Below are positions 6,784-31,122 of a DNA stretch of 37,936 bases, piece by piece. This DNA comes from Desulfovibrio sp. (lineage in GTDB: Bacteria; Bacillota; Dethiobacteria; DTU022), in contig JAGUZX010000123.1 in assembly GCA_020060545.1 (NCBI GenBank), positions 1 to 37,936 on the forward strand, written 5' to 3'. How positions within the stretch are numbered: the first letter of the stretch is position 1; each line of letters opens with the position of its first letter. Under the pieces are notes generated by a model. That model saw only the letters and a list, made by a program, of their open reading frames with translations, did no database searches and had not been told where the DNA came from. The translations under genes and the position numbers were made by a program.

Positions 6784-7539
6784 GTGCAAACACTAATTGG
6801 TGTCACTTCAGCCTGGAGCGTGGAAACGTGGGGTGATCCACCCCGGCCCGGAGGTTATATCTACACGGATAAGGCCTATACCGGGGCCGTTTACGGCTGC
6901 GGCGCGCTGCCGCTGGTTCTCGTCCCCCCGCTGGAGCGGTATGCCGGTGAGGAACAAGGCGCGGTTGAAGCTTTCCTGGACCGCCTCGGGGGGTTAATCC
7001 TTACCGGCGGCGGCGGCGCCCGGAGGTTCAAAGCGGAGGAACTTCCCGGGCTGGCCGGGCAGCAACCGCTCCGCTACTGCTTCGAGTCTCTCCTGATCAG
7101 GGAAGCCTGGCGTCGGGGCATGCCGGTCCTGGGGATGTGCCGGGGGCACCAGATGATGGCCGAAGTGATGGGCGGGACAATCCAAAAGCAGACCGTGGAG
7201 GGGCACGTTCAGGAAGAGCAAGCCCTGACGGCCCATAGCGTCGAGCTTGTCCCGGGAACAAGGCTGGCGCGGCTGTGCGCGGCCGGCCGCTGGGAGGTAA
7301 ACAGCTTTCACCGCCAGGTTGTCGCGGAGGTGCCGCCGGGGTTTGTCGTTGCAGCCCGCAGCGCGGAGGGTTTGATCGAGGCGATGGAACCCCGGGAGGG
7401 TCCCTTTTGGCTAGGCTTTCAATTTCACCCCGAGCTGCTTTTCGATGAAGACGAGATGGCGCGCCGCATTTTCCGCAGTTTTGTGCAAGCGGCGGAGGAA
7501 TATTTGACGAAGAGCCGGCGCCCTGCCAACTCGATGTGA
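6784..7539 (+). CDS. Peptidase C26 / gamma-glutamyl-GABA hydrolase-like protein
   Basis: 251 residues, the size of PuuD-type class I glutamine amidotransferase-like hydrolases. The nucleophile elbow is GMCRGHQMM (Cys at about 119), and the His-Glu pair is in FQFHPE near residue 219. LILTGGG is the family's oxyanion-strand motif. GTG start at 6784 follows GCGAGGGAAG. PuuD cleaves gamma-glutamyl-GABA; related proteins cleave other gamma-glutamyl amides. It is convergent with the B12-enzyme operon, so a link with that amino-acid pathway is possible but not shown. Confidence 0.85.
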   Translation: MQTLIGVTSAWSVETWGDPPRPGGYIYTDKAYTGAVYGCGALPLVLVPPLERYAGEEQGAVEAFLDRLGGLILTGGGGARRFKAEELPGLAGQQPLRYCFESLLIREAWRRGMPVLGMCRGHQMMAEVMGGTIQKQTVEGHVQEEQALTAHSVELVPGTRLARLCAAGRWEVNSFHRQVVAEVPPGFVVAARSAEGLIEAMEPREGPFWLGFQFHPELLFDEDEMARRIFRSFVQAAEEYLTKSRRPANSM

Positions 7540-7746: not shown

Positions 7747-10700
7747 TTAGATCACCGGTACTTCTGTTTTTTGTACTGTGCTTACTTCCAGCGGCTGCAG
7801 GTAGCGTTTCATCATTTTTATGGCGCGTTCCGGGTCCAGCCGCCCGTAGAGTCCTCCGAGAATGGAGACCAGGTAATTGGCGTCGAGAAACACCTTGCCG
7901 TTCGGCCTGAGGATGCCGCCCTCCGCTTCGCGGTAGAGCGCCCCCGAGGCAATCAACTCCAGGTCCTGGCCGTGGTATTTCAGACTTTCCATGCACTTGT
8001 GGTAAATGGTGCCTCCGATTAGCAGGAGACTGCAGTCCCTGGTATAGAAATTGACCCCGTACTGCATAAAATAGGTATCCGTTTCTTCGACGTAGCCGAC
8101 GTTGTTGCCGGTGGCGACGCTCATTATTTCCCGGGCCATGAAGGCGAAGACCGTATTCCACTCCGGGGTTACGGGCATGACGTGGGGGTGGGAGTGGATC
8201 CAGCGCAGCATCTCTTCCAGCCGGATTGCCCAGCCGCCTGTAGTACGGGCGGCGAACCGGTCGAAGGGATCGCCCTGCTGTTGGAAATCCGGGTATCGCC
8301 GGTTGAAATAGTCATTCAATTCACGGTTCATGCTGCCGTCCCGGAAGCGCTTTAATTCCATGATGTTTTCGGCGTTGTAGCTGAGGCCGTATTTCCCTTC
8401 CACCCGCCGGTAGGCAAGAGGAGCGTTGGGCGTCTTGAGTATGGTTCGCTTCACCTTGCGGCGCGGGTCGTCTCCCGGGAAAATGTAAAGCGGGTTTTCC
8501 AGCACGTTGGCGTAAAAGTCGGTGGTGCAGCCTCCGATATCCAGCGCCACGATGTTGCCGAACCCCTTTTCAATGCCGTAACCCTTGGCCAGGAGCCTGA
8601 TTCCTAAAAAGGCGGCCCGGGGGGTGGGGATGAACTTGGCGCTCATGTACTCCTCGACCACGTCGAAACCTTTCCCCCGTATGATGATCGTCTGGAAGAG
8701 TTCCCGGATCGTTTCATTGACCACCTCGATATTGAAGGTGTTAACCTCGGGCATGACGTTGCCGGTAATCCTGATATCCACCCCGGCTTCCTTGAAGATT
8801 GCTTCGACCTCGCCGGCTATGTCCCGGTTGCCGGCATAGATCACCGGCACCCCGTACTTGGCGTAGGTGGCGTATTTTGCGCCGCCGGCCAGGACGCGGG
8901 CGTTTTGCAGCTGTGTCTCCGTTTCTCCTCCGTCGTTGACCCCGCCGGCCAGGAGGATGATTTCCGGCTGATCCTCTTCGTAAATCCGCCTGACTTCTTT
9001 TTCGGAGAGGGGGCCGTCATAGCTGTTCAACAGCTTCGCCCCGGCGGTCAGGGCGGCCAGCTCGGCGGCGAAGCCGCTCTCTTCCTTCACCAGCGAAACG
9101 GTGACCATCTTCAGGCCGCCCTTGGCGCTGCTGCAGGGCAGCTTGATGTCAAATTCTAGCATCTTGCGGGAAAGCGGCTCCCAGCTGCCGGCGCCGCGAC
9201 ACTCTTCCAGTACTCCCAGCCCGTTGGCCAGGCCTTCGCGGAGATCGTCAACGGTGGTGGGGACGTATTTCAGGTCGAATTTCTCGGTTGCCGTATCGAA
9301 GATCCCCACCTTGGTGTAGGTGCTGCCGAAGTCGACCACCAGCACCTTCTTGCCGGTGAAATCGTGCATCCCGAGTTGGTTGCGAAATTCCCGGACCACT
9401 TCATCCAACTCTTCGCCGGTTTCGCTGATGTGCGACTTGTCGTCGGCGACGCTAATCTCCTTGTTGAAGAACCAGGGCGTGCGCCTGTAGACCAGGTCCA
9501 CCCGCGCCATTTCATCCGAGACCTTGATCCGGTTGAACTCGTCGATGCGGCAGGCGCCTTCCACCATCCTGGTGCGGCATTTGCCGACCATTTCGTAGCG
9601 CTTATCGAGCACAGTAAGCTGCGGGGCCTGGCAGAGGCCCGTCTGCAGCGAAAGGTCCAGGGTGTCCGGGCTGATCATGCCGCAGCTGCCGCTGGGGTAA
9701 TTGGCCTCGTCCACGAAATCATAGAGCATGTTCTCGTAATGCTTTTCCCGCTCCGCCGGGTCGGGGCGTTTTTGCGCCTCCTCCTTGCAGACGGCCCAGG
9801 TTTTAAAATTTTCCCGGGTCACCTTGCCTTCATAACCGCCCATCAGCGCCAGGTGCAGGGCGTTGTACATGACCCCCATTTTCAGTTCTTCCTTGCGGCG
9901 CTTGAATTTGGGGTCGGCCATGATGTCGGGCTGCTCGCCCTTGTAAAAGTCCTTGACCACCTGCTTGACGATGTCGCAGCTTTCAATGATATCCGCCGCC
10001 TTGGCTTCGTGGTGGGCTTCAGGGAAGCTGACCACGTGGATGATCTCGGGTTCCATGTACATCTGCCAGTGGGTGGTCACGGCAAGATGCCCCTTGGCCA
10101 TATCAAGGTTGGGCGGGAAGCTGGAGAGCCCGCCGCGCGTTTCCTTGATGATGTTGAAGTCGTACCTGCGGGTCAGCGGTTCAATCAGTTCATAGGCGGC
10201 CATCATCTTCGCCAGGTCGTTGCACGCCGAGATCTCCGGCGGCAGGTCGAACATGAGCTGCATGATATAATTCTTAACGCCGCATTTAAGGGCGATCACG
10301 GCGCAAATGACGTGATCCAGCGCGTACATGTCGTCGGAGCAGTTGCGCAGCTGCCACTGGTGCGGGTCGTTGATTTCCACCGGTTTGCTCTGCTCCGCCC
10401 ACCAACGGATCACCTCCAAGTGCTCGTCAAAGCCTTCGCGGATGGCGATGGGCCCTCGACCGTCCAGTTCGTTGTAGAAAAATATGGGCACTGCGGGAAA
10501 GGGCATGTGAAAGTACTTCTCAAAAAGCTTTGCCAGCGCCAGCAGCTCGTCGGTTCCCGAGTAGATGCGGATCATTGGGTAATTGCCGCGCAGCGTCGCT
10601 TCCTTGAGCCGCCGCAGGTCCTCTTCGGTGCGGATCGGCACCCCGCCCTGCCCTTTTAAATACTTTTCAGGATCTTCCTCGCCGCGGATAAACTTGGCCA

Positions 10701-11433
10701 GGTGGGCCTGGGAGGGCTGATCCGGACCCAGGGAGACGATCTCCAGGGCCTGGGCGTCGCAGACTTTCTCGATATCCTCCAGGGTCGGTTCCACCGACTC
10801 CGCGGCGATGCCGATATGCGCGCGCAGGATCGGCCGGTTTTCCCGCTCCCTGACCTCCCTGATCCGCTCCAACAGGTCGTCGGACCAGGTGTACTTTTCC
10901 GTTTCATGCGGCGGCAGGGCGCGGGCAAAGCGTTCCAGCTCGTCCATGGTGACGTAGTCGTCGACGATCAGTTCGAAGAACCCGTGGTACTGTTTCAGCG
11001 GGGCATACTCCGACGCCACCTTATCCAGGTCGTAGTTGCGATCCTCCGGCGGAGAAAATTTATCCTCCAGGAGCGGCTGACCGGTCATGGCCCGTACCAG
11101 GTTGGCCGCGGGGCGCAGTCCGCCGAAGGAATACCGGATCCCGCTGTTTTGTGGATCGATTTTGTGCTCCAAGGCCTTGTCCATGAATTCCCTGATCAGC
11201 TTGTCGACATGCAGATCTCCCAGGCGGCTGGAAACCCCCACTACCGCCGGACGCGATTCCCTGATCTTATTAATCACGTCCTGGATCGGCACAGCCGGGC
11301 CGAGCTTGACGGCGATGTAGCCGATGTTCTTGTCTTCCATCCATTCGGCGAAGGTTTCCACGCCCAGGGAGTGCACGCAGTCGCCGATGGAGCCGACCAG
11401 GACCCGCTTTTTTACTTCAGTTATTTCCTTCAT
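7747..11433 (-). CDS. Fused B12-binding / glutamate-mutase-like barrel / MutL-type reactivase
   Basis: 1228 residues, ATG after GAGGAGG. (1) Residues about 8-130 are a Rossmann B12-binding domain like GlmS: CVHSLG (19-24, His21 the likely Co ligand; the usual DxHxxG Asp is Cys19, with Asp18 one place earlier), SSRLG, and FGG. (2) Residues about 135-640 resemble the catalytic TIM barrel of glutamate mutase GlmE: YPMIRIYSGTD (Arg289) lines up by eye with the GlmE PLQARHGTPD segment, and there are counterparts to GVKN and GGFP. (3) Residues about 695-1228 are a MutL/GlmL-type ASKHA ATPase (VVDFGSTYTKVG, Asp701; ALDIGGCTTD, Asp965), which reactivates B12 mutases. The substrate residues of GlmE are not kept, so the substrate is probably not glutamate. 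Last gene of the operon, followed by a terminator. The domain calls are firm for parts 1 and 3, inferred for part 2. Confidence 0.85.
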   Translation of the reverse strand: MKEITEVKKRVLVGSIGDCVHSLGVETFAEWMEDKNIGYIAVKLGPAVPIQDVINKIRESRPAVVGVSSRLGDLHVDKLIREFMDKALEHKIDPQNSGIRYSFGGLRPAANLVRAMTGQPLLEDKFSPPEDRNYDLDKVASEYAPLKQYHGFFELIVDDYVTMDELERFARALPPHETEKYTWSDDLLERIREVRERENRPILRAHIGIAAESVEPTLEDIEKVCDAQALEIVSLGPDQPSQAHLAKFIRGEEDPEKYLKGQGGVPIRTEEDLRRLKEATLRGNYPMIRIYSGTDELLALAKLFEKYFHMPFPAVPIFFYNELDGRGPIAIREGFDEHLEVIRWWAEQSKPVEINDPHQWQLRNCSDDMYALDHVICAVIALKCGVKNYIMQLMFDLPPEISACNDLAKMMAAYELIEPLTRRYDFNIIKETRGGLSSFPPNLDMAKGHLAVTTHWQMYMEPEIIHVVSFPEAHHEAKAADIIESCDIVKQVVKDFYKGEQPDIMADPKFKRRKEELKMGVMYNALHLALMGGYEGKVTRENFKTWAVCKEEAQKRPDPAEREKHYENMLYDFVDEANYPSGSCGMISPDTLDLSLQTGLCQAPQLTVLDKRYEMVGKCRTRMVEGACRIDEFNRIKVSDEMARVDLVYRRTPWFFNKEISVADDKSHISETGEELDEVVREFRNQLGMHDFTGKKVLVVDFGSTYTKVGIFDTATEKFDLKYVPTTVDDLREGLANGLGVLEECRGAGSWEPLSRKMLEFDIKLPCSSAKGGLKMVTVSLVKEESGFAAELAALTAGAKLLNSYDGPLSEKEVRRIYEEDQPEIILLAGGVNDGGETETQLQNARVLAGGAKYATYAKYGVPVIYAGNRDIAGEVEAIFKEAGVDIRITGNVMPEVNTFNIEVVNETIRELFQTIIIRGKGFDVVEEYMSAKFIPTPRAAFLGIRLLAKGYGIEKGFGNIVALDIGGCTTDFYANVLENPLYIFPGDDPRRKVKRTILKTPNAPLAYRRVEGKYGLSYNAENIMELKRFRDGSMNRELNDYFNRRYPDFQQQGDPFDRFAARTTGGWAIRLEEMLRWIHSHPHVMPVTPEWNTVFAFMAREIMSVATGNNVGYVEETDTYFMQYGVNFYTRDCSLLLIGGTIYHKCMESLKYHGQDLELIASGALYREAEGGILRPNGKVFLDANYLVSILGGLYGRLDPERAIKMMKRYLQPLEVSTVQKTEVPVI

Positions 11434-11507: not shown

Positions 11508-12713
11508 TTAGCCGTACCCCCCCAGGCTTACCGTGATCAACCTTAGCGCGTCGTTGATGCCGTAATGCTGGGGGATGCGGGCTTCCTTCAAATCCGGACC
11601 GGCCAGTTTTCCCCGCTGATCCAGGTAGTGCTTATTAATCCAGCCGGAGCAGGCGGTGATCACTTCGTTGATCCGGGGAGTGGGGCTGTCGATCATTTCG
11701 GCCACGGCCCGGCTGAACAAAAGCCCGAAAGGAATGTCCTCGGTCAGGTAGCGGCTTTCAAAATCGGGGATGTAGCCATCGGTCGTTTTTTTCACCGGTA
11801 GTTTCAGGCCGCTGTAGCTTCGGTTGGTGCGAAAGGCGCGCACCAGGGTGGATCTGTCTTCTATATGGCGGGCGTAAGCGCGCACCAGCCACTGCCCCAC
11901 CGTCAGCACCTGCTCCAGGTCCACGGGGAATTCACGGGCCAGGCGGGCCGCCATCCTCACAATTTCCGAGCTTAAATCTTCCAGGACCCGCGCCGTTTCT
12001 TCGGTAACCCCCTGGTAGAAGAGAGGAATCTCCGCTTCGCTCCAAACCTCGCCGCGGTAGTGTTTCAGTACTCCGTACATAATTCCCGGGTGGATCACCT
12101 GGCCGATGTTGCCCAGGGAAACGGTAAGGCTGTTGGGCAAAGCGTAAAAATTTACCTCCAGGGCTTTACTTAGGAAATCGGCCAGGGCCGGGGCGCTCTC
12201 CGGTGGAATCGCGGCCAGTCCCACCGACTCCTTCGTCCCCAGCACCCTGACCTTGCGGCCGTATGATTCAATCCGGCAGGCCCAGGGCAGGGTCTGGCCG
12301 CAGAAGATAATCTGTTTTTTCCCCCGCTCCGGGATGGCGTGCAGCGCCTGGAATTCGAACCCGCTCCGGGAAGGGATCGCTCCCACCGCCGTTCCGGCCG
12401 GCAAGTGAGGGGACAGCGCTTTCAGCAGCGGCCCGTGGGCAAATGCCGGTACTACCATCAGGATCAGGTCCGCTTCGGCGGCTTCTGCGGGATCCGTGGT
12501 GACCAAGTGGGGCGAGCCCCTGAGAACCCTCCCGTTGAAAAAGAGCGCCTCCAGCCCGCCTCCTGCCGCGGCTTCCCGAAAGCGCTCGGCCTCATCGGCG
12601 AAAGGGGCGTAGAGTGTAACCCGGCAGCCCCTATTGACCAGCAGCGGGATGACCACGTGGGCGGCGTTACCTCCGCCGCAGACGGTTATACGGGCAAAGC
12701 CGGTGGTAGCCAT
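11508..12713 (-). CDS. NAD/NADP octopine/nopaline dehydrogenase family protein
   Basis: 401 residues. The N-terminal Rossmann fold has VCGGGNAAHV (about 11-20). The C-terminal helical domain carries the catalytic-His motif QVIHPG and the conserved SRYLTEDIPFGL stretch of opine dehydrogenases. Such enzymes reversibly condense an amino acid with a 2-oxo acid to make an N-(1-carboxyalkyl) amino acid. ATG start with AAGGAG upstream. It lies between the ABC importer and the B12 enzyme in one orientation. The 126-nt gap before it holds a TAATAA/TTATTA palindrome and a possible extra promoter. Its direction (making or breaking an opine) cannot be told. Confidence 0.88.
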   Translation of the reverse strand: MATTGFARITVCGGGNAAHVVIPLLVNRGCRVTLYAPFADEAERFREAAAGGGLEALFFNGRVLRGSPHLVTTDPAEAAEADLILMVVPAFAHGPLLKALSPHLPAGTAVGAIPSRSGFEFQALHAIPERGKKQIIFCGQTLPWACRIESYGRKVRVLGTKESVGLAAIPPESAPALADFLSKALEVNFYALPNSLTVSLGNIGQVIHPGIMYGVLKHYRGEVWSEAEIPLFYQGVTEETARVLEDLSSEIVRMAARLAREFPVDLEQVLTVGQWLVRAYARHIEDRSTLVRAFRTNRSYSGLKLPVKKTTDGYIPDFESRYLTEDIPFGLLFSRAVAEMIDSPTPRINEVITACSGWINKHYLDQRGKLAGPDLKEARIPQHYGINDALRLITVSLGGYG

Positions 12714-12839: not shown

Positions 12840-13835
12840 TTAGGCTGAATTAAGGTGACACATCACGAGATGATCACTCCGGACCTGGCGCAGTTCGGGG
12901 ATGACGCTGCGGCATAAATCCCCCTTCCTTTCCGGGCAGCGGGGATGAAAGGGACAGCCCGGGGGCACGTTAATCGGGCTGGGCACGTTTCCCTCAAGGA
13001 TGATCCGCTTACGTCGCGCCGTCCGGTCGACTACCGGGATCGCCGAAAGCAGCGCCCTGGTATAAGGATGCAGGGGGCTTTCAAACAAGGCCTTGGTTGC
13101 CGCGACTTCGACGATTTTACCCAGGTACATTACGGCAATGCGGTTGCTCACGTAATAGATTACACTCAAGTCGTGGGTGATGAACAGGTAAGTGAGGTTG
13201 AACTCTTGCTGCAAGTCCTCCAATAGATTAATAATCTGCGCCTGGACCGAAACGTCGAGGGCCGAAACCGGTTCATCGCACACAATAAATGAAGGCTTCA
13301 TCGCCAGGGCGCGGGCGATGCCGATGCGCTGGCGCTGTCCCCCGCTGAACTGGTGGGGATAATTGTTGATATGGTATTCCGACAAACCCACCCTGTTCAG
13401 TAACTCCATGATCCGCTCCTCGCGTTGAACTGGATTGTTGATCCCCTTTTGTAGCAGGGGCACGGCGATGATATCGCGTACCGTCTTGCGCGGGTTAAGC
13501 GACGAATAAGGGTTTTGAAAGATAATCTGTGCTTTTTCACGGAACTGCAGCAGCTTGGAAGGGTTGTATTTAAGGATATTCTCTCTCCGGTAAAGCACTT
13601 CCCCTTCTGTCGGAGGGAAAATATTCAATATTGATCTACCGAGGGTGGATTTGCCGCAACCGCTTTCTCCGACCAGGCCCAGTGTTTCCCCTTCCCTGAT
13701 TGCCAGGTCGACACCGTCGACGGCCCGGACCAGCAGGTTTTTCCGGCTGGCCAGGAGGCGGGTGATCAAGGAGCGGCGGATGATAAAATACTTCTTCAGC
13801 GCATTAATTTCGATCAGTGGTTGTTGAGCGTTCAC
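12840..13835 (-). CDS. Opp/Dpp-type ABC transporter ATPase (OppF/DppF)
   Basis: 331 residues. Walker A GESGCGKST, ABC signature FSGGQRQRIGIARAL, Walker B FIVCDEPVSALD, switch His in LFITHDLSV. The C-terminal oligopeptide-transport extension is present (PSPINVPPGCPFHPRCPERKGDLC), with Cys spaced as in the family [4Fe-4S] or structural motif. GTG start. It pairs with the second ATPase just upstream; together they power the importer from the cytoplasm. Confidence 0.95.
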   Translation of the reverse strand: MNAQQPLIEINALKKYFIIRRSLITRLLASRKNLLVRAVDGVDLAIREGETLGLVGESGCGKSTLGRSILNIFPPTEGEVLYRRENILKYNPSKLLQFREKAQIIFQNPYSSLNPRKTVRDIIAVPLLQKGINNPVQREERIMELLNRVGLSEYHINNYPHQFSGGQRQRIGIARALAMKPSFIVCDEPVSALDVSVQAQIINLLEDLQQEFNLTYLFITHDLSVIYYVSNRIAVMYLGKIVEVAATKALFESPLHPYTRALLSAIPVVDRTARRKRIILEGNVPSPINVPPGCPFHPRCPERKGDLCRSVIPELRQVRSDHLVMCHLNSA

Positions 13836-13853: not shown

Positions 13854-14834
13854 TTATTTGTACCTGGCGCAGCGGACCAGCCTGCCGTTCCCCAGGTCCC
13901 GCATCTCTTGCGGTTCCTTGCATACTTCCACGGCATAGTCACAGCGCGGCAGGAAGGTACAGCCCGGCGGCAGGTTTAACAGGTCCGGTACAGTTCCCCG
14001 GATCGGCCTCAGACGTGGTTTATCCGGGACGATATGCGGTATCGAACGAAGCAGCCCCTGGGTGTAGGGGTGCAGCGGGTTTTCAATGATCTCGTCGGTC
14101 AGCCCCTGCTCGATAATCTTTCCGGCGTACATCACCGCGATCCGCCGGCAAAACTCGGCGGCGACCCCCAAGTCATGGGTGACCAGGATTACGGCCATGC
14201 CGTGCGAGCGGTTGATCCTTTCCATCAAATTTAAGATCTGCGCCTGGATCGTTACGTCCAAGGCGGTGGTAGGCTCGTCGGCCAGGAGAATTTTCGGCTC
14301 GCAGGAGAGGGCGATGGCGATAACTGCACGCTGCTGCATACCGCCGCTGAACTGGTGCGGGTACTCATAGTAGCGGTCCATGGGCGAAGGTATACCGGTC
14401 TCTTCCATCAGCTGGATCACTCGCTCTTTTTCCTGCTTCAGCCGTTTCCGTTCACTGAATCGGGATTGATTAAAGATATTATGAATGCGCAAGGACTCCC
14501 GGATCTGCTCCCCGACTTTAAACACCGGGTTTAGGGTGGTCATCGGATCCTGGAAGATCATCGCCAGGTCGCGTCCCCGCATCCGGGTCATCTCCCGGCT
14601 GCTCTTCTTGAGCAGGTCCCCGCCCTGGAAGAGAATTTCTCCGCCGACGATTGCCCCCGGGTGGGGGACCAGCCGTAACAGTGAAAGCAGCGTCATGCTC
14701 TTACCGCAGCCGGATTCTCCGACCAGGCCTAGAATTTCCCCCTGCTCCAGCTTGATACTGACGCCGTCCACCGCTTTAATCGAACCCCTGGAGGTTTGGA
14801 AATATGTTTGCAGGTTGTTGACTTCGAGAAGCAA
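13854..14834 (-). CDS. Opp/Dpp-type ABC transporter ATPase (OppD/DppD)
   Basis: 326 residues from the TTG at 14834, chosen because GGAGG lies 7 nt upstream and the stop of the permease gene precedes it by 16 nt. Walker A GESGCGKSM, signature FSGGMQQRAVIAIAL, Walker B ILLADEPTTALD, VTHDLGVAAE, and the C-terminal GTVPDLLNLPPGCTFLPRC extension. It forms a heterodimer with the OppF-like ATPase. Confidence 0.95.
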   Translation of the reverse strand: MLLEVNNLQTYFQTSRGSIKAVDGVSIKLEQGEILGLVGESGCGKSMTLLSLLRLVPHPGAIVGGEILFQGGDLLKKSSREMTRMRGRDLAMIFQDPMTTLNPVFKVGEQIRESLRIHNIFNQSRFSERKRLKQEKERVIQLMEETGIPSPMDRYYEYPHQFSGGMQQRAVIAIALSCEPKILLADEPTTALDVTIQAQILNLMERINRSHGMAVILVTHDLGVAAEFCRRIAVMYAGKIIEQGLTDEIIENPLHPYTQGLLRSIPHIVPDKPRLRPIRGTVPDLLNLPPGCTFLPRCDYAVEVCKEPQEMRDLGNGRLVRCARYK

Positions 14835-14850
14835 GGGCGAACCTCCTCTG

Positions 14851-15786
14851 TTACTCGATCCGACGCAGGCGCGGATCAAGGATATCTCTCAGGCCTTCCC
14901 CGAACATGTTGATCGCCAGGACCAGGAGCAGGATGGCCAGGCCCGAGAATGTGGAGATCCACCATGCGTTGAGCAGGTAGTTCCGGCCGACGTTGACCAT
15001 GGAGCCCCAGGCCGGCTCGGGGTACTGGATCCCCAGCCCGAGAAAACTTAACGAAGCTTCCATAATAATCATGAAACCGATGCGCAGCGTGCCCAGGACG
15101 ATAATCGAATTCATAATGTTCGGCAGTATTTCCTGGAACATAATTTTAAAGTGGCTCTGCCCCAGGGCCCGGGCGGCTTCGACGTATTCCTTGGTCTTCT
15201 CCGAGAGCACTTCTCCTCGGACCAGGCGGAAAAAGCCCACCCATCCCTTAAATGTCAGGGCGAAAACCAGGTTACCGAAACCCGGACCGATCACGGCCAT
15301 GGTAAAAATGGCAAAGATTAGCCAGGGAAAGGAGAGGAGCAGGTCGGCGAAGCGCGCCAGGATATTGTCCAGGGTGCCACGGTAATAACCCGACAGCATG
15401 CCCAGGGTTGTGCCGATCATAATGGAAATGCCGACGGTTAAGACCCCGATCAGCAGCGATATACGCGTTCCGGCGATAATGCGGGAGAACAGGTCCATCC
15501 CCAGCTGGTCGGTACCGAGGAGATACTCGCTCTTGCCGCCTTCCATCCAGGCTGGCGGAAGAAGCTTATCTTCAAGGTGTACCTCTTTCGGATTATGAGG
15601 TACAATCAGCGGGTCGGCGACGGCTATAAAAACAAAAAAAAGCAGTACGATCAACCCGGTCATCCCCGCCGGGTGGCGGCGCAGCTTATTTATAAACTGG
15701 AGAAAATTTATTCCTGCCAGGCGCAACCGCAACAGGTAGTATTCCCGGAGAACTGTTTTATCGGTGGATACTTGGACCTGGCTCAA
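14851..15786 (-). CDS. Opp/Dpp-type ABC transporter permease (OppC/DppC)
   Basis: 311 residues, TTG start with AGGAGG upstream. A cytoplasmic N-terminus leads to a first membrane span (GLIVLLFFVFIAVADPLIVP), the typical LLGTDQLGMDLFSRII motif, and a BPD_transp_1 core with the EAA-loop region (VEAARALGQSHFKIMFQEILPN). Inner-membrane half of the channel, partner of the OppB-like permease. Confidence 0.95.
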   Translation of the reverse strand: MSQVQVSTDKTVLREYYLLRLRLAGINFLQFINKLRRHPAGMTGLIVLLFFVFIAVADPLIVPHNPKEVHLEDKLLPPAWMEGGKSEYLLGTDQLGMDLFSRIIAGTRISLLIGVLTVGISIMIGTTLGMLSGYYRGTLDNILARFADLLLSFPWLIFAIFTMAVIGPGFGNLVFALTFKGWVGFFRLVRGEVLSEKTKEYVEAARALGQSHFKIMFQEILPNIMNSIIVLGTLRIGFMIIMEASLSFLGLGIQYPEPAWGSMVNVGRNYLLNAWWISTFSGLAILLLVLAINMFGEGLRDILDPRLRRIE

Positions 15787-15825: not shown

Positions 15826-16836
15826 TCAGATAGATATCTTGGGGTTTATATACGTATAAAGAATATCTACAACCAGGTTCGCCGCGACAAAAGTAAAGGC
15901 GTAAACCATGACCACGCCTTGGACAAGGGGGTAATCGCGCACAAAGATCGAATTCACTACCAGGCGGCCCAATCCCGGCCAGCTGAACACGGTTTCGACG
16001 ATCATGTTGCCTCCCAAAAGCATGCCGATCTCCAGGCCGATCACGGTTACCGTGGGGATCATCGCGTTGCGCATAGCATGCTTAACGATCACGCTAAACT
16101 CCCTTAACCCTTTAGCCCGCGCCATCACCACGTAATCGTTGCGCAGCACCTCGAGCATGCTCGAGCGCATTACCCGCGCCACTATGGCGGCCATCGGAAA
16201 ACCAAGGGTGATCGAAGGGAGGATCAGGTGCTTCAAAGTACTGCCCAGGGCGGCCCAGTTGCCGGTGATGATCGAATCAAGCATGTAAAAACCGGTCACC
16301 TTATGTAGCATCACCTCGTAACTGATCCGGCCGTAGGTGGGGAGCACGCCCATTTTCACGGAAAAGACGAGCATCAGGATAATCCCCAGGTAGAAAACCG
16401 GCATGCAGATGCCGAAAAAGGCCACCGTCATACTGGCCCGGTCAATGAAACTGTTCTGTTTTACCGCTGAAATAACGCCGATGGGGATGGCCAGCAACAG
16501 GGCAAATATCGCCGCGCCCAGGGCCAGTTCGAGCGTGGCCGGAAGGGCGCCCTTGATCAGGTCCCAGACCGGGCGGCCTTTGGTAAAGGACGTGCCCAGG
16601 TCGCCCCGGGCCAAATCCCTGAGAAAGTAGCCCAATTGGATGTGAAGCGGTTCGTTCAGGTGCCACTGTTCGGTGAGCAGCTCGATTTCCCTTGCGGAGA
16701 CGTGGCCGGCCTGGCCCATCATGATATCCACCGGATCTCCCGGGGTGAGACGCATAATCAGGAAAATGATAATGCCGATGCCGATAACTACAGGGATAGC
16801 GATCAGGATTCTTTCTGCAATTTTAGCCGCTTGCAT
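15826..16836 (-). CDS. Opp/Dpp-type ABC transporter permease (OppB/DppB)
   Basis: 336 residues, ATG with GAGGTGG upstream. The N-terminal span (ILIAIPVVIGIGIIIFLIMRL) and TPGDP motif are typical, as is LGTSF; the EAA loop (VMARAKGLREFSVIVKHAMRN) and the C-terminal VFSWPGLGRLVVNSIFVRDYP are diagnostic for this permease group. Six membrane spans expected. It lies after oppA with a stable hairpin between them. Confidence 0.95.
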   Translation of the reverse strand: MQAAKIAERILIAIPVVIGIGIIIFLIMRLTPGDPVDIMMGQAGHVSAREIELLTEQWHLNEPLHIQLGYFLRDLARGDLGTSFTKGRPVWDLIKGALPATLELALGAAIFALLLAIPIGVISAVKQNSFIDRASMTVAFFGICMPVFYLGIILMLVFSVKMGVLPTYGRISYEVMLHKVTGFYMLDSIITGNWAALGSTLKHLILPSITLGFPMAAIVARVMRSSMLEVLRNDYVVMARAKGLREFSVIVKHAMRNAMIPTVTVIGLEIGMLLGGNMIVETVFSWPGLGRLVVNSIFVRDYPLVQGVVMVYAFTFVAANLVVDILYTYINPKISI

Positions 16837-16988: not shown

Positions 16989-18539
16989 TTACTTCAGCTT
17001 TACCCTGTGCAGGTTGATCCGGCTGTCGGTGCTGGGTTGCCAGTTCTCTACGTTGGAGCGGCAGGCCTCGATTTCCCGGCCCACGTAGCTGAATACCCAC
17101 GGAGCATCTTCATAGATGATCGCCTGTGCCTGGTAGTAGAGTGTTTTCCGTACTTCGCGGTCCGTTTCCACTTCCGCCGCATCCAGGAGGGCATCCAACT
17201 CGGGGTTGGAGTAATGCGAATAGTTCCCGCGGTCGTTGCTCCGCAGTTTCGGAACGAGCAGGTCGCTGGGATCCAGGGTCGAGTTGCCCCAGTTGCCGAA
17301 GCACATCATCCGCTCTCCGGCCAGGAGCTGCTCCTTGAGCACGCCCCAGTCCCAGGTGCGGACGGTGGCTTCGATACCCACATCGGCCAGCATGCTGGCG
17401 GCGGCGTATACCACGTCCTTTAATTCATCGGTCGTATCGATCACCAGCTCGAAACCGTCGGCGTAGCCGGCTTCCTCCAGCAGCTTCTTTGCCTTCGCCG
17501 GGTCATAGCCATAGGGCTTCAGATCCGGATCGCGGGCGAACCCGTGCGGCAGCAGGGGACCGGCAACAACGGTGCCGTAGCCCGACAAAACGTTTTTCAC
17601 AATAGCATCCATGTCGATAGCATAGTTGACCGCCTGGCGGACCCGAACATCATCAAACGGAGGCTTGGTCACGTTCATTTCAAACATGTGCATCCGGGTG
17701 CCTTCCACTGTTTTGACGATCACGTTCGGATCGGCCTCCAGCGTGCTGACCATGTCGGGCGGGATGTTATGGATAATATGGACATCTCCGCCCTGCAGGG
17801 CGGCGATGCGGGTCGAGACTTCAGGCATAAATTCAAAGATCACCCGTTTAGCCGGGGCGGGGCCGACCGGCGGAATCTCCGGAGAGCCGCCGTAGTAATC
17901 GTCGAAACGCTCCAGGACGATGCGCTCGTCGATGGAGCCTTCGACAAATTTAAACGGCCCGCAGCCCATCGGCTTGGTGGCTATATCGGAGCCTACTTCT
18001 TCTACGTAGGCTTTCGAAACGATCTGCTGGTGCGGCAGCATCGCCAGGAGGATCGGCCACGGTTTCTTCAGGACGAAACGAATCGTATCGTCTCCGACGA
18101 TCTCGACCTCTGTCACCGGCCCCATCAGGCCTTTACGCGGCGAGGTCTCTCCCTCCATGGCTCCTTCCTGGATCACCCGGTCAAAAGTAAATTTGACGTC
18201 TTCAACGGTTAAATCGGATCCGTTGTGGAACTTGATCCCCGAGCGGATTTTAAATTCCCAAGTCAGCGGATCAGGGTTGGTCCACGATTCTGCAATCTCA
18301 GGAACAACCGTGCCGTCCGGCTTCCGGGTTACCAGGCCGTCGTAGATATTGCGGATTACCGTCTCGGTAACCCGGTCGCGGTGGTTGGCCGGATCAAGGG
18401 TCATGATCGTCTGTGAAAGGCCGACGATGATGGTGTAATCCTCGGCTTCTTTTTCAGCTGGTTGGCATCCGGCAAACAGGGAACCGATCATAAGTACGGC
18501 CAGCGCTAGAACCGCGAAATACCATGCTCTCTTCTTCAC
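16989..18539 (-). CDS. Extracellular solute-binding lipoprotein, family 5 (OppA/DppA type)
   Basis: 516 residues. A lipoprotein signal with lipobox LFAGC (Cys at about 25) anchors it to the outer face of the membrane. The mature part has the SBP_bac_5 pattern: LDPANHRDRVTETVIRNIYD, PEIAESWTNPDPLTWEFKI, FHNGSDLTVEDVKFTFDR, and AVNYAIDMDAIV. These receptors bind peptides, nickel chelates, opines or other amino-acid derivatives; the ligand cannot be read from sequence. GTG start at 18539 with AAGGAGGGGA upstream. First structural gene after the GntR regulator. Confidence 0.95.
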   Translation of the reverse strand: MKKRAWYFAVLALAVLMIGSLFAGCQPAEKEAEDYTIIVGLSQTIMTLDPANHRDRVTETVIRNIYDGLVTRKPDGTVVPEIAESWTNPDPLTWEFKIRSGIKFHNGSDLTVEDVKFTFDRVIQEGAMEGETSPRKGLMGPVTEVEIVGDDTIRFVLKKPWPILLAMLPHQQIVSKAYVEEVGSDIATKPMGCGPFKFVEGSIDERIVLERFDDYYGGSPEIPPVGPAPAKRVIFEFMPEVSTRIAALQGGDVHIIHNIPPDMVSTLEADPNVIVKTVEGTRMHMFEMNVTKPPFDDVRVRQAVNYAIDMDAIVKNVLSGYGTVVAGPLLPHGFARDPDLKPYGYDPAKAKKLLEEAGYADGFELVIDTTDELKDVVYAAASMLADVGIEATVRTWDWGVLKEQLLAGERMMCFGNWGNSTLDPSDLLVPKLRSNDRGNYSHYSNPELDALLDAAEVETDREVRKTLYYQAQAIIYEDAPWVFSYVGREIEACRSNVENWQPSTDSRINLHRVKLK

Positions 18540-18901: not shown

Positions 18902-19651
18902 TTAGTTTACTTCCCGGCTGACGTGGAATTTGTAGCGGTCCCCGCGGTAGTAAGCCCGGCGCAGCTCGATCGGGTTTTCCTGTCGGGTGTAGATAATGGA
19001 GGTTACCTTGAACAGGGGGCTTCCTTCCGAAAGCAGCATCAGCTCTGCATGGTGCGGAGAAGCTACCGTAGCTTCAAAGGTTTGCTTTGCCAGGCCTAGG
19101 TCGATATGTTTTTGTTCGCGGTAGTAGCGGGTAAAAGAAAACCAGTCTCCTTTTTGTTCGAATGCCCGGATCAATTCGATCGCTTCGCGTCCCAGGGCTG
19201 CGGGAAGGTAATAATGAAAAAGAACCATCGGTTCTTCGTTGGCGATACCGAGCAGCTTGAAGCTGGCCACGTCGGCGCCGAAATCAAGGCCCAGCAAGGT
19301 CGTAATTTGCACGTCGGCCGTGATCATCTGGGCTTCGATAACCTTCATCGACGGTTTCAACCCCCTGGTCAGAAGCGTTTCCTCGAATCCGGTCAGGCGG
19401 ACCAAGCCCTGGTCGATTTTCGGTTCAGCGACAAAAGTTCCCTTTCCCTGGATCCGGTAAAGGAGGCCTTCGCTGATGGCCAGGCTGATTCCCTGGCGCA
19501 CGGTTGTCCGGCTTAGATTGTAGCGTTCACAAAGTTCCCGTTCCGAGGAAATCTGTTCGTGCGTTTTATACTTTTGTTCTCTTATTTCCTGGGCCAACAG
19601 CTCTTTCAGCTGGAGGTACAGGGCCACCGGAGATCGGCTTGATATTTCCAT
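18902..19651 (-). CDS. GntR/HutC-family transcriptional regulator with UTRA domain
   Basis: 249 residues from ATG 19651 (GGGAGG upstream; the longer frame to 19687 lacks a ribosome binding site). Residues about 5-70 are the winged helix (ISSERELCERYNLSRTTVRQ, GLLYRIQGKGTFV). Residues about 90-245 are a UTRA ligand-binding domain (ASPHHAELMLLSEGSPLF, ending YYRGDRYKFHV). HutC-type members are usually repressors released by a pathway intermediate. It heads the Opp/opine DH/B12 operon and is divergent from the flavoprotein operon, so it may control both. Confidence 0.92.
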   Translation of the reverse strand: MEISSRSPVALYLQLKELLAQEIREQKYKTHEQISSERELCERYNLSRTTVRQGISLAISEGLLYRIQGKGTFVAEPKIDQGLVRLTGFEETLLTRGLKPSMKVIEAQMITADVQITTLLGLDFGADVASFKLLGIANEEPMVLFHYYLPAALGREAIELIRAFEQKGDWFSFTRYYREQKHIDLGLAKQTFEATVASPHHAELMLLSEGSPLFKVTSIIYTRQENPIELRRAYYRGDRYKFHVSREVN

Positions 19652-19698
19652 ATTGTTATCTTCCTCCCGTCCATGAGCTGCCTGCAATCCTCCAATAA

Positions 19699-19965: not shown

Positions 19966-21438
19966 TTGCTTGATTTTAGCGAAATGATGCTCCAGGAACG
20001 GCAGCTCCTTTCCTCCGAATCTTCGGAATTGGCCGGCAAGCTGCGTGTCATCGCGGGAGAACAGGGGGTCTCCGCCAGCCCGGTCGACCGGCTGGCAACC
20101 TGCCGGGATTACTGGCCGATGGGCTCGCTCTGGTTCCTGGAAGGAAAAGCCCCGGCGCTGCCGGACCTGGTGGTCTGGCCCGCCGACACCGCGCAGGTGG
20201 CGGCTGTGCTGGCCCTGGCCGGCGAGCACGGCGTCCCGGTGACGCCTTACGGTGAGGGTTCCGGGGCCCTGGGCGGCGCCATCCCTTTAAGGGGAGGCAT
20301 AGTTCTCGATCTGAAGCGGATGAACCAGGTCAGGGAACTAGATGGGGAGAATCTAATGGTTACCGTGGAGTGCGGCCTCAACGGGGCGCTCTACGAAGAG
20401 CACCTGAACCGGCGCGGCTTTACCGGGGGCCACATCCCGCAGTCGATCCGCTGTTCCACCGTGGGCGGCTGGCTGGCCTGCCGCGCCGCCGGGCAGTTCT
20501 CGTCGCGCTACGGGAAAATCGAAGATATGGTGGTGGCCCTCGAGGCGGTGCTGCCCGACGGGACCGTCTTCAGCGGGCGCAGGGTGCCCCGCACCGCCAC
20601 CGGCCCCCGGTTGGATCATCTCTTCATCGGCTCTGAAGGCGCCCTGGGCGTGATTACAGCGGCCACCCTGCGCATCTGGCCCTGCCCGGAAGAGCGCAGC
20701 CTGCTGTCGTTTGCTTTTGCCGGCCTGGAAGAGGGCCTGGAGGCCGCCCGCCTGATTATCCGCGCAGGGGCCCGGCCGGCGGTGGTGCGCCTCTACGATT
20801 ACGCCGAAACCGGGCACCACTTCCCTGAAGTAAAAGAAGCGGGCGGGCGCTGCATGCTGATCCTGCTCATTGAAGGAGATCGCCGCCTCGCCGCCGCCGA
20901 GACGCAGATGGCCCGGGAGGCGGCCCTGGCACACGGCGGCGTGGATACCGGATGCGGGCCCGTGGAGCACTGGCTGGAGCGCCGCTTCAATATCAGCCTG
21001 GCCTCGAAGCTTTTCCGGCAGGGGGCCGTGGTGGACACGATAGAGGTTTCTTCCACCTGGACCGGCGCAGCCCCGCTCTACCGGGCCATGCAGGAAGCGA
21101 TGCTTGCGGTTGAGGGGACCGCCCTCGCTTCGGGCCATTATTCGCATGTTTACCCGGAGGGGGCCGCGCTTTACATGACCCTCTGCGGCTTCCCGCCCGG
21201 CGAAAAGGCGGATTACTATAAACGGATCTGGAGCGCGGCGATGGAGACCTGCCTTTCCCTGGGCGGGGCGATCAGCCACCACCACGGGATCGGGCTGCAC
21301 CGGGGGCTGTGGATGGAGCAGGAGCACGGCGGCGCGGGGCTGGAGGCGCTGCGGCGGGTTAAACAGGCTCTCGATCCCGGCGCGATCATGAACCCGGGCA
21401 AACTGGGCTTGGAGGAGGCTTTAGAATGGCGGAAGTAA
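19966..21438 (+). CDS. FAD-linked oxidase, alkyl-DHAP synthase / GlcD-like
   Basis: 490 residues. TTG at 19966 is preceded by AAAGGGGGAA; an ATG at 19962 is out of frame and stops after three codons. A PCMH-type FAD-binding domain (about 60-240: PVTPYGEGSGALGG, STVGGWLACRAAGQFSSRYG, GSEGALGVIT) is followed by a C-terminal oxidase cap ending in SHHHGIGLHRG and ALDPGAIMNPGKLGL. The SRYGKIEDMV segment and the HHH motif are closer to alkyldihydroxyacetonephosphate synthase than to typical GlcD or D-lactate dehydrogenase. It overlaps the next gene by 13 nt. Likely substrate: a 2-hydroxyacid or a glycerol-type lipid precursor; which one is not resolved. Confidence 0.88.
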   Translation: MLDFSEMMLQERQLLSSESSELAGKLRVIAGEQGVSASPVDRLATCRDYWPMGSLWFLEGKAPALPDLVVWPADTAQVAAVLALAGEHGVPVTPYGEGSGALGGAIPLRGGIVLDLKRMNQVRELDGENLMVTVECGLNGALYEEHLNRRGFTGGHIPQSIRCSTVGGWLACRAAGQFSSRYGKIEDMVVALEAVLPDGTVFSGRRVPRTATGPRLDHLFIGSEGALGVITAATLRIWPCPEERSLLSFAFAGLEEGLEAARLIIRAGARPAVVRLYDYAETGHHFPEVKEAGGRCMLILLIEGDRRLAAAETQMAREAALAHGGVDTGCGPVEHWLERRFNISLASKLFRQGAVVDTIEVSSTWTGAAPLYRAMQEAMLAVEGTALASGHYSHVYPEGAALYMTLCGFPPGEKADYYKRIWSAAMETCLSLGGAISHHHGIGLHRGLWMEQEHGGAGLEALRRVKQALDPGAIMNPGKLGLEEALEWRK

Positions 21439-22505
21439 ACCGGAAACGGCTGCTTGAATGCGCCCTTTGTCCGAATATGTGCCGCTGCGAATGCCCGGTG
21501 GCGCAGGCCGCGGGCCGGGAGGCGGTCGCCCCCTCCGGCAAGGCCCGCCTGGCCCACCTGCTCCTGGAAGGACGTCTTCCATGGAGCGAGGCCGCGCTGG
21601 AAGCCCTCTCTGCCTGCCTCGGCTGCCGCGGCTGCACGCTGTTATGCCCTTTTCCGGAGCTGGCCCTCGACGACGAACTGCTGGCGGCGCGCCGGAACGC
21701 GGCGGCCGCCGGGATTTGTTTGCCCGCCGCGGCCCCTTTTGATCACAATTTAAAAAAGTACGGCAGCCCCTACGGTTCCAGGGGCGGACCGGCGGCGGCA
21801 AAGTATGGGGACGGGGAGGTGCTTTATTTTACGGGCTGCACCGCCGCGGCCAATCATCCGGCGGCCGCCGGAGCAGCCCTGGCCCTGTTTGAGCAGGCGG
21901 GGGTATCATACCAGACGATAGATGAATATTGCTGCGGTTACCCGGCGGAGACCTGGGGCGGCGAAACCCTGGCACGGCAGCTGGCTGCTGAAAACCGCGC
22001 GCGAATTGCAAAGAGCGGGGCCCGGCGCCTGGTTACGGGATGCCCGGAATGCCGTTATACTTTTACCCGCCGTTACACCGAGTGGGGCGCGGCGCTGCCT
22101 CTCCCCGTGGTTGACAGCGCCGGCTTTTTCCTGGAACTGGTCCGGGAGGGACGGCTCAAACCCCGGGCGCTGGAGGGGGCCGGCCCGGTGACTTATCACG
22201 ACCCCTGCCTCGCAGCCCGGCTGGAAGAGAAGTGGGAAGAGCCGCGGATACTGCTCGGCTTTATACCCGGCCTCTCTTTGGCCGAAGCCGCCTGCGCCAA
22301 GCGGTCCACCCGCTGCTGCGGCGGCGGGCGGATGCTTCAGCTGACTTTTCCCGCCTTATCCGAAGCGATCGCGAAGCGGCGCCTGGCGGAGTTTCCCGCC
22401 GGTGCGGCCGTGGTTACCGCCTGTCCCTTCTGCCGCGAAAACCTCGCCGCCGGCGGCGGCGCGGTGCTGGATCTGGCGGAGCTGCTGGCCAGGGCCTGCC
22501 TCTGA
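21426..22505 (+). CDS. Iron-sulfur (Fe)S protein with two CCG domains, GlcF/LutA/HdrD-like
   Basis: 359 residues, translationally coupled to the flavoprotein. The N-terminal region has cysteine clusters CALCPNMCRCECP and CLGCRGCTLLCP for two [4Fe-4S] clusters. Two CCG (cysteine-rich) domains follow: FTGCT with YCCGYP and GCPECR, then YHDPCLAAR with RCCGGGRM and ACPFCRENL. Such proteins take electrons from a flavin dehydrogenase partner to quinone or a soluble carrier. The pairing suggests a two-subunit oxidoreductase. Confidence 0.9.
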   Translation: MAEVNRKRLLECALCPNMCRCECPVAQAAGREAVAPSGKARLAHLLLEGRLPWSEAALEALSACLGCRGCTLLCPFPELALDDELLAARRNAAAAGICLPAAAPFDHNLKKYGSPYGSRGGPAAAKYGDGEVLYFTGCTAAANHPAAAGAALALFEQAGVSYQTIDEYCCGYPAETWGGETLARQLAAENRARIAKSGARRLVTGCPECRYTFTRRYTEWGAALPLPVVDSAGFFLELVREGRLKPRALEGAGPVTYHDPCLAARLEEKWEEPRILLGFIPGLSLAEAACAKRSTRCCGGGRMLQLTFPALSEAIAKRRLAEFPAGAAVVTACPFCRENLAAGGGAVLDLAELLARACL

Positions 22506-30840: not shown

Positions 30841-30880
30841 CCTGTTAATTTGGCGATGTGTTTAAAGCACATACTGACCG

Positions 30881-31122
30881 GCGATGAAGGAGAAGAGTAA
30901 GCGGGAGAGATGTGCCGCCCAGGGAGGCGGGGCCGGTGACTGCAAGCCCTGCCCGGTGCGGCCCGCTGAAGTTCGCTCCCGAGCTTCCGGCTGAACGGCG
31001 AAGCTTCGCCTGCGTAGGCCGTGACGGGTTGCCCCGTTACCGGAAACAAGCGGAGCCGGCGCCGGCTAAGATGGGTGGTACCGCGGAAGAAAACTTTCGT
31101 CCCTCGCAAGAGGGCTTTTTGT
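30881..31122 (+). ncRNA. T-box riboswitch, phenylalanine specifier
   Basis: The T-box consensus GGGTGGTACCGCGG is at about 31073-31086. In stem I, GGAG (30889-30892) pairs with CTCC (30976-30979), the loop-E AGTA is at 30896-30899, GCGGG (30901-30905) pairs with CCCGC (30962-30966), and then GAA precedes the specifier TTC (30972-30974), a Phe codon. Uncharged tRNA-Phe would stabilise the antiterminator and permit pheST expression. The 470-nt gap between the methyltransferase and pheS is filled by this element, its promoter and a palindrome. Confidence 0.95.

Follow-up and report, generated by a model that had tools for sequence, protein, structure and literature searches.

A glutamate-mutase-like enzyme with all parts in one chain

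In glutamate mutase the B12 subunit (GlmS), the catalytic barrel (GlmE) and the reactivating ATPase (GlmL, of the MutL family) are separate proteins; can all three functions reside in a single polypeptide, and if so, what reaction would such a protein catalyse? The question is raised by contig JAGUZX010000123.1 of Desulfovibrio sp. (assembly GCA_020060545.1, placed by GTDB in Bacillota, Dethiobacteria, DTU022), of which positions 1 to 37,936 were analysed and are referred to here as the window. An open reading frame (ORF) on the minus strand (7747–11433), open from ATG through stop, encodes 1228 residues, comprising an N-terminal B12-binding Rossmann domain (residues 1–115; 11089–11433), a GlmE-type triosephosphate isomerase (TIM) barrel (about residues 150–655; 9469–10986), a linker (about residues 656–696; 9346–9468) with low model confidence at residues 662–679, and a C-terminal MutL ATPase domain of the ASKHA fold (residues 697–1228; 7750–9345). 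The initial annotation, made from the sequence alone, had claimed exactly this three-function chain, and the ORF is intact with the quoted motifs located as described (CVHSLG at residue 19, SSRLG at 68, FGG at 103, VVDFGSTYTK at 699 and ALDIGGCTTD at 963). With a probability of roughly 0.6, we read the protein as an adenosylcobalamin (AdoCbl)-dependent isomerase that rearranges a carbon skeleton in the manner of glutamate mutase; its substrate would be an N-substituted amino acid, or the product of one, and the attached MutL ATPase would keep the cofactor functional.

The fusion is not a chance product, because a scan of genome contigs recovered 41 further loci (59–82% identity in the best segment), and all complete copies share one domain order. 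In two of these relatives (L025 and L037, L numbers denoting the loci compared) the fused gene is split, probably by frameshifts, since the split falls within the barrel rather than at a domain border. The genome to which the window belongs holds no MutL-family match besides the fusion protein, and the GlmE Pfam model (PF06368) finds nothing in it, fusion protein included.

A barrel related to GlmE

Residues 120–697 gave no Pfam match, even at E ≤ 1, and a single-sequence search of the PDB returned B12 domains and one chance aminotransferase match, with nothing for the barrel. An AlphaFold2 (AF2) model of residues 1–705, based on an alignment of 37 sequences (alignment A1), reached a mean predicted local distance difference test score (pLDDT) of 87 and a predicted template modelling score of 0.80. 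Its top PDB match in Foldseek was GlmE (6h9e_B; E 1.4e-13, template modelling score 0.66 by target length), followed by lysine 5,6-aminomutase (KamD), ornithine 4,5-aminomutase (OraE) and acyl-CoA mutases. When a barrel-only alignment was compared by hhalign, GlmE was matched with a probability of 93.6 (E 2.1e-7, about 395 columns) and KamD with a probability of 9.6, whilst the negative controls (reversed, shuffled and unrelated profiles) gave 0.1–1.2. Judged by profile and model, GlmE is the nearest relative of the barrel, ahead of KamD and OraE; the initial annotation had proposed a GlmE relationship, to be checked against the GlmE, OraE and KamD families, and the profile comparison with GlmE and KamD came out for GlmE with KamD weak. 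Several shorter relatives, which lack the MutL domain and are described below, reached PF06368 weakly, a few of them just above its cut-off. A further weak GlmE match, G106:C12 (L100), was set aside, as its sequences mark it as an ordinary cluster for acyl-CoA mutase.

Opine dehydrogenase partner and the MutL-less sister family

The fused gene has a near-constant partner. At 74 bp upstream of it, on the same minus strand, lies a gene for an opine (octopine-type) dehydrogenase (11508–12713; Pfam Octopine_DH, 3.1e-32), the nearest solved structure being the octopine dehydrogenase of Pecten maximus (3c7a; E 1e-62, full length). Equivalents of His212, Arg324, Asp329 and Trp278 are invariant in 64/64 dehydrogenase homologues, with the His-Asp dyad and the NADH-sensing Arg kept. 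Glu142 of octopine dehydrogenase binds the guanidinium group (PMC2924402); its equivalent is Gln in the partner and in 58/64 homologues, and because of this replacement the amino-acid substrate is probably not arginine, the sequence pointing to an opine dehydrogenase without arginine specificity. Such a gene adjoins the mutase in 33 of the 34 fused loci whose flanks were long enough, L024 being the exception, and in 34 of the 35 short-form genomes examined, where L110 is the exception. In one fused subclade (L020, L022, L036 and L041) the dehydrogenase is of the other, short-form type and is located downstream; the partner was exchanged here, yet remained an opine dehydrogenase.

The fused loci come chiefly from Chloroflexota, then from Atribacterota and Bacillota, with single assemblies labelled SAR324, Bipolaricaulota, Actinomycetota and Lokiarchaeota (unchecked labels of metagenome-assembled genomes); one locus, L011, is a 3.7-kb contig. 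When 348 genomes of the phylum were searched with alignment A1, a short form turned up in about 70 and the fused form in three, with both forms present in one genome. The short form, of roughly 540–640 residues (about 550), consists of the B12 domain and barrel only. In 2009, Zhang et al. predicted a “novel B12-dependent protein family” whose members, found in 11 bacteria, invariably neighbour an octopine/nopaline dehydrogenase, with D-Ala-D-Ala ligase (Ddl) and asparagine synthase occasionally close by (PMC2667541). The short form matches the published description of this family on every point, and its barrel is assigned to the GlmE type in the present analysis. The window protein shares the B12 domain, the barrel and the adjoining dehydrogenase with that family, but adds the C-terminal MutL domain, two internal insertions and an importer operon. 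In the open literature (most subscription journals lay outside the search) we found no later work on that family or its substrate, and no description of a B12-barrel-MutL fusion. The wider family, present in about one fifth of the sampled genomes of the phylum and tied to opine dehydrogenases, stands for a B12 reaction that was predicted in 2009, and we found no substrate reported for it.

Other genes recur beside these mutases. A Ddl-like ATP-grasp gene stands beside the mutase/opine dehydrogenase pair in a fused locus (L035:12339-13250) and in two further loci (L073:5287-6156 and L077:10306-11292); mutase, dehydrogenase and ATP-grasp protein together recall PylB-PylC-PylD of pyrrolysine synthesis, though solely in the types of component. 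An asparagine-synthase-type amidotransferase adjoins the short-form mutase in L108, L124 (L124:2918-4081) and L131, Pfam having been run on L124 only. A gene identified by eye as Lgt (prolipoprotein diacylglyceryl transferase) lies near the short-form mutase in L112, L113, L114, L118 and L125, which is probably plain synteny.

Active-site residues

Of the residues that hold the substrate of glutamate mutase, R66, R149 and E171 bind its glycyl part, whilst R100 and Y177 bind its acrylate part (PMC10947579). In the larger of our profile alignments, R66 of GlmE aligns to the invariant His206 of the fusion and R149 to the invariant Tyr291, in each case with an invariant arginine two residues earlier in the same strand (Arg204 and Arg289, respectively). 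R100 has no Arg counterpart and E171 no acidic counterpart in the fusion barrel in this alignment. Tyr177 falls on Y320, which is Phe in a few relatives, the Glu330 equivalent is the invariant E472, and Lys326 is lost, aligning to Val468. A mapping made by eye, in which Arg204 corresponded to Arg66 and Arg289 to Arg149, was dropped when the larger alignment placed His206 and Tyr291 at these positions. If the register is right, the arginine claw would be set deeper than in glutamate mutase, which suits a longer or N-substituted substrate.

Cofactor and MutL domain

The Pfam B12-binding model matches residues 10–105 (E 4.6e-6) with 26.9 bits against a curated cut-off of 32.1, and GlmS is among the PDB fold matches of the AF2 model that align to this domain, so that a B12 domain, as initially annotated, is supported. 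Its lower-ligand motif reads CxHxxG, not DxHxxG, Cys19 standing at the Asp position whilst the His and Gly are kept; Cys occupies this position in 36/36 readable fused proteins and 22/28 short proteins. The Asp of DxHxxG is retained in a minority of short forms; the window motif covers residues 19–24 (nucleotides about 11362–11379). In L042 the 3′ end of the fused gene is shared with an overlapping gene for a corrinoid (cobalamin) adenosyltransferase, and the window's own genome encodes a single BtuR-type enzyme; this gene content favours adenosylcobalamin as the cofactor.

The MutL assignment of the initial annotation holds at the level of family and fold. Pfam MutL (PF13941) covers residues 697–1212 (E 1.5e-81), whilst the NCBIfam GlmL model (NF040745) scores 275 bits, below its equivalog cut-off of 475. 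When 26 fused MutL domains were aligned with nine GlmL proteins, to which they are 30–37% identical, the residues of the GSTxTK- and DxGGxTTD-type motifs were invariant. The domain model (pLDDT 88) finds matches of the ASKHA class, namely subunits of acetone/acetophenone carboxylase as well as glycerol or sugar kinases; motifs and model together lend good support to an ATPase fold. To our knowledge, analogy has so far been the basis of the role assigned to MutL/GlmL beside B12 mutases. GlmL is described as a reactivating chaperone, with diol dehydratase work cited (PMC4682846), and by the same analogy the fused domain probably maintains or reactivates the cofactor, which would make the enzyme “self-repairing” in the sense that the initial annotation had predicted.

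In the MutL tree the fused domains form one clade (support 100/100), and a quick tree of the barrel likewise places fused and short forms apart. In two genomes (L109, 1–1261, and L121, 1–1262, both minus strand) the short-form mutase is immediately followed by a free-standing MutL gene of the GlmL-like kind, downstream of both mutase and opine dehydrogenase; the set is that of the fused loci, but unfused. Because these MutLs group with GlmL and not as sister to the fused domain, MutL seems to have become associated with this enzyme on at least two independent occasions; origin of the fused form from a separate MutL of the L109/L121 type was rejected on the same tree. With MutL fixed 1:1 to the mutase, and with natural sisters that lack it, the role of MutL becomes testable in one purified protein.

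The annotation had likened the protein to IcmF, the fusion of isobutyryl-CoA mutase with its G-protein chaperone, and the likeness is apt in that both place the B12 domain first and carry a helper nucleoside triphosphatase in the chain of the catalytic barrel. The fusion differs in that its helper is MutL, an ASKHA ATPase, with no MeaB-type G-protein or CoA-mutase barrel, its order being B12 domain, GlmE-like barrel, helper. The annotation was right in kind but incomplete, as it lacked the opine dehydrogenase partner, the MutL-less sister family, the Cys in DxHxxG and the re-modelled active site.

Proposed reaction and alternatives

In the proposed isomerase reaction, homolysis of the Co-C bond would yield a 5′-deoxyadenosyl radical which abstracts a hydrogen from a substrate bound within the barrel through Arg204/His206 and Arg289/Tyr291; a 1,2-shift would rearrange the resulting substrate radical, which would then regain the hydrogen. 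The enzyme probably acts on an amino-acid derivative that links it to the opine dehydrogenase, as either product or precursor of the latter's oxidative CH-NH cleavage; this compound would present no free alpha-amino group to a Glu171 equivalent and no gamma-carboxylate to an Arg100 equivalent. The pathway is probably catabolic: an imported N-acylated, peptide-like or opine-like amino acid would be processed by the dehydrogenase and the mutase, whilst the MutL domain, in line with the proposal for GlmL, probably spends ATP on removing or exchanging damaged cobalamin. In a more specific version, which we hold to be unlikely, the mutase would be a new class of AdoCbl isomerase acting on opines themselves: it would move either the amine or the carbon that bears the carboxyl group within an N-(carboxyalkyl) amino acid (e.g., N-(1-carboxyethyl) to N-(2-carboxyethyl)), with the dehydrogenase making or cleaving that secondary amine. 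The lost Glu171 and Arg100 contacts, and arginines that apparently lie two residues deeper in two strands, would suit a bulkier, N-substituted substrate.

Glutamate mutase itself, its three parts fused and converting L-glutamate to 3-methylaspartate, would account for the same three functional parts, for GlmE as nearest fold and profile and for the identity of the MutL domain to GlmL. In glutamate mutase, however, the parts are separate proteins, and both active-site residues and gene context differ: Arg100 and Glu171 lack counterparts, the remaining arginines of the claw have been exchanged or have moved, and the constant partner is an opine dehydrogenase, for which reasons the fusion is, on its sequence, not a glutamate mutase. 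The loss of Lys326, the silence of PF06368 in the genome, the missed GlmL equivalog cut-off (275 vs. 475 bits) and an opine dehydrogenase in place of methylaspartate ammonia-lyase point the same way and make this reading highly improbable. The initial annotation had proposed a “carbon-skeleton mutase or aminomutase”, of which the first half stands and the second is weakened. An aminomutase of the lysine 5,6- or ornithine 4,5- type, dependent on both pyridoxal phosphate (PLP) and AdoCbl, would be in keeping with the KamD and OraE fold matches after GlmE (KamDE and OraSE combine a related TIM barrel with a B12 domain), with the amino-acid context of the operon, and with a racemase-like gene in L006 and L007. 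KamE and OraE carry the PLP lysine in the Rossmann domain, whereas no Lys is invariant among residues 1–115 in alignment A1, leaving no PLP-lysine candidate; with a KamD profile probability of 9.6 against 93.6 for GlmE, and a separate KamD encoded in the same genome, an aminomutase seems quite unlikely.

That the protein carries or transfers methyl groups by means of a corrinoid, instead of being an AdoCbl isomerase, we regard as very unlikely: the best PDB sequence matches of the B12 domain are methyltransferase corrinoid proteins, yet the barrel is GlmE-like, and in L042 the genes for mutase and adenosyltransferase overlap. The isomerase reading could also be right whilst MutL uses ATP for substrate activation or cofactor loading, not for reactivation, as might be argued from its best folds, the carboxylase subunits and kinases named above, with no B12-enzyme reactivase among the 50 best listed, and from the lack of MutL in most short forms tested. 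Against this, the MutL family stands alone beside glutamate mutase and two short-form mutases, and because MutL adjoins different mutases, cofactor maintenance for several of them suits better than a substrate-specific role; a function other than reactivation is unlikely.

For the isomerase with tethered reactivase, several observations count in the opposite direction. The B12 domain scores under the Pfam cut-off, and its nearest PDB sequences, in a single-sequence search, are the methyltransferase corrinoid proteins. Among seven short-form genomes tested for MutL, five had no match and two a weak partial one, so the isomerase can work without MutL. No cobalamin riboswitch was found by Rfam in the window or in seven related loci. 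The residue mapping depends on the register of the profile alignment, without coordinates, and no known mutase-pathway enzyme lies nearby that would point to the substrate.

Genes around the mutase

From the regulator to the mutase (19687 to 7747) the genes are co-directional, all on the minus strand. Beyond the dehydrogenase these are two peptide-type ATP-binding cassette (ABC) transporter ATPases (12840–13835 and 13854–14879; both Pfam ABC_tran and oligo_HPY), two permeases of the same type (14851–15786, BPD_transp_1 and OppC_N; 15826–16836, BPD_transp_1), the family 5 solute-binding protein of the transporter (16989–18539; SBP_bac_5, 1e-91) and a GntR/UTRA regulator (18902–19687; Pfam GntR and UTRA), probably of the mutase operon; L003 and L004 have the same cluster. 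Around fused genes, importers of the ABC or TAXI-TRAP type are found repeatedly, as are amide hydrolases of various kinds, the latter including D-aminoacylase-like amidohydrolases, AAT-type proteins, gamma-glutamyltranspeptidase and M20 and M81 peptidases, and the common theme appears to be import and deacylation of N-substituted amino acids. Near the fused gene of L042 there are also D-glutamate-cyclase-like and mandelate-racemase/enolase-superfamily genes (L042:7750-8802 and L042:19146-20264).

Convergent with the mutase is a peptidase C26 (gamma-glutamyl hydrolase-like) gene (6784–7539, plus strand), a homologue of which lies inside the operon in L004 and nearby in L002 and L003. Divergent from the regulator, a GlcD-like FAD oxidase and an iron-sulfur-type gene (GlcF-like, by eye) occupy 19966–22505 on the plus strand; this hydroxy-acid dehydrogenase might serve the mutase pathway, the pairing not being conserved. 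Elsewhere in the window, an ordinary T-box leader (98.1 bits; 30875–31107, plus strand) precedes what by eye appear to be phenylalanyl-tRNA synthetase genes.

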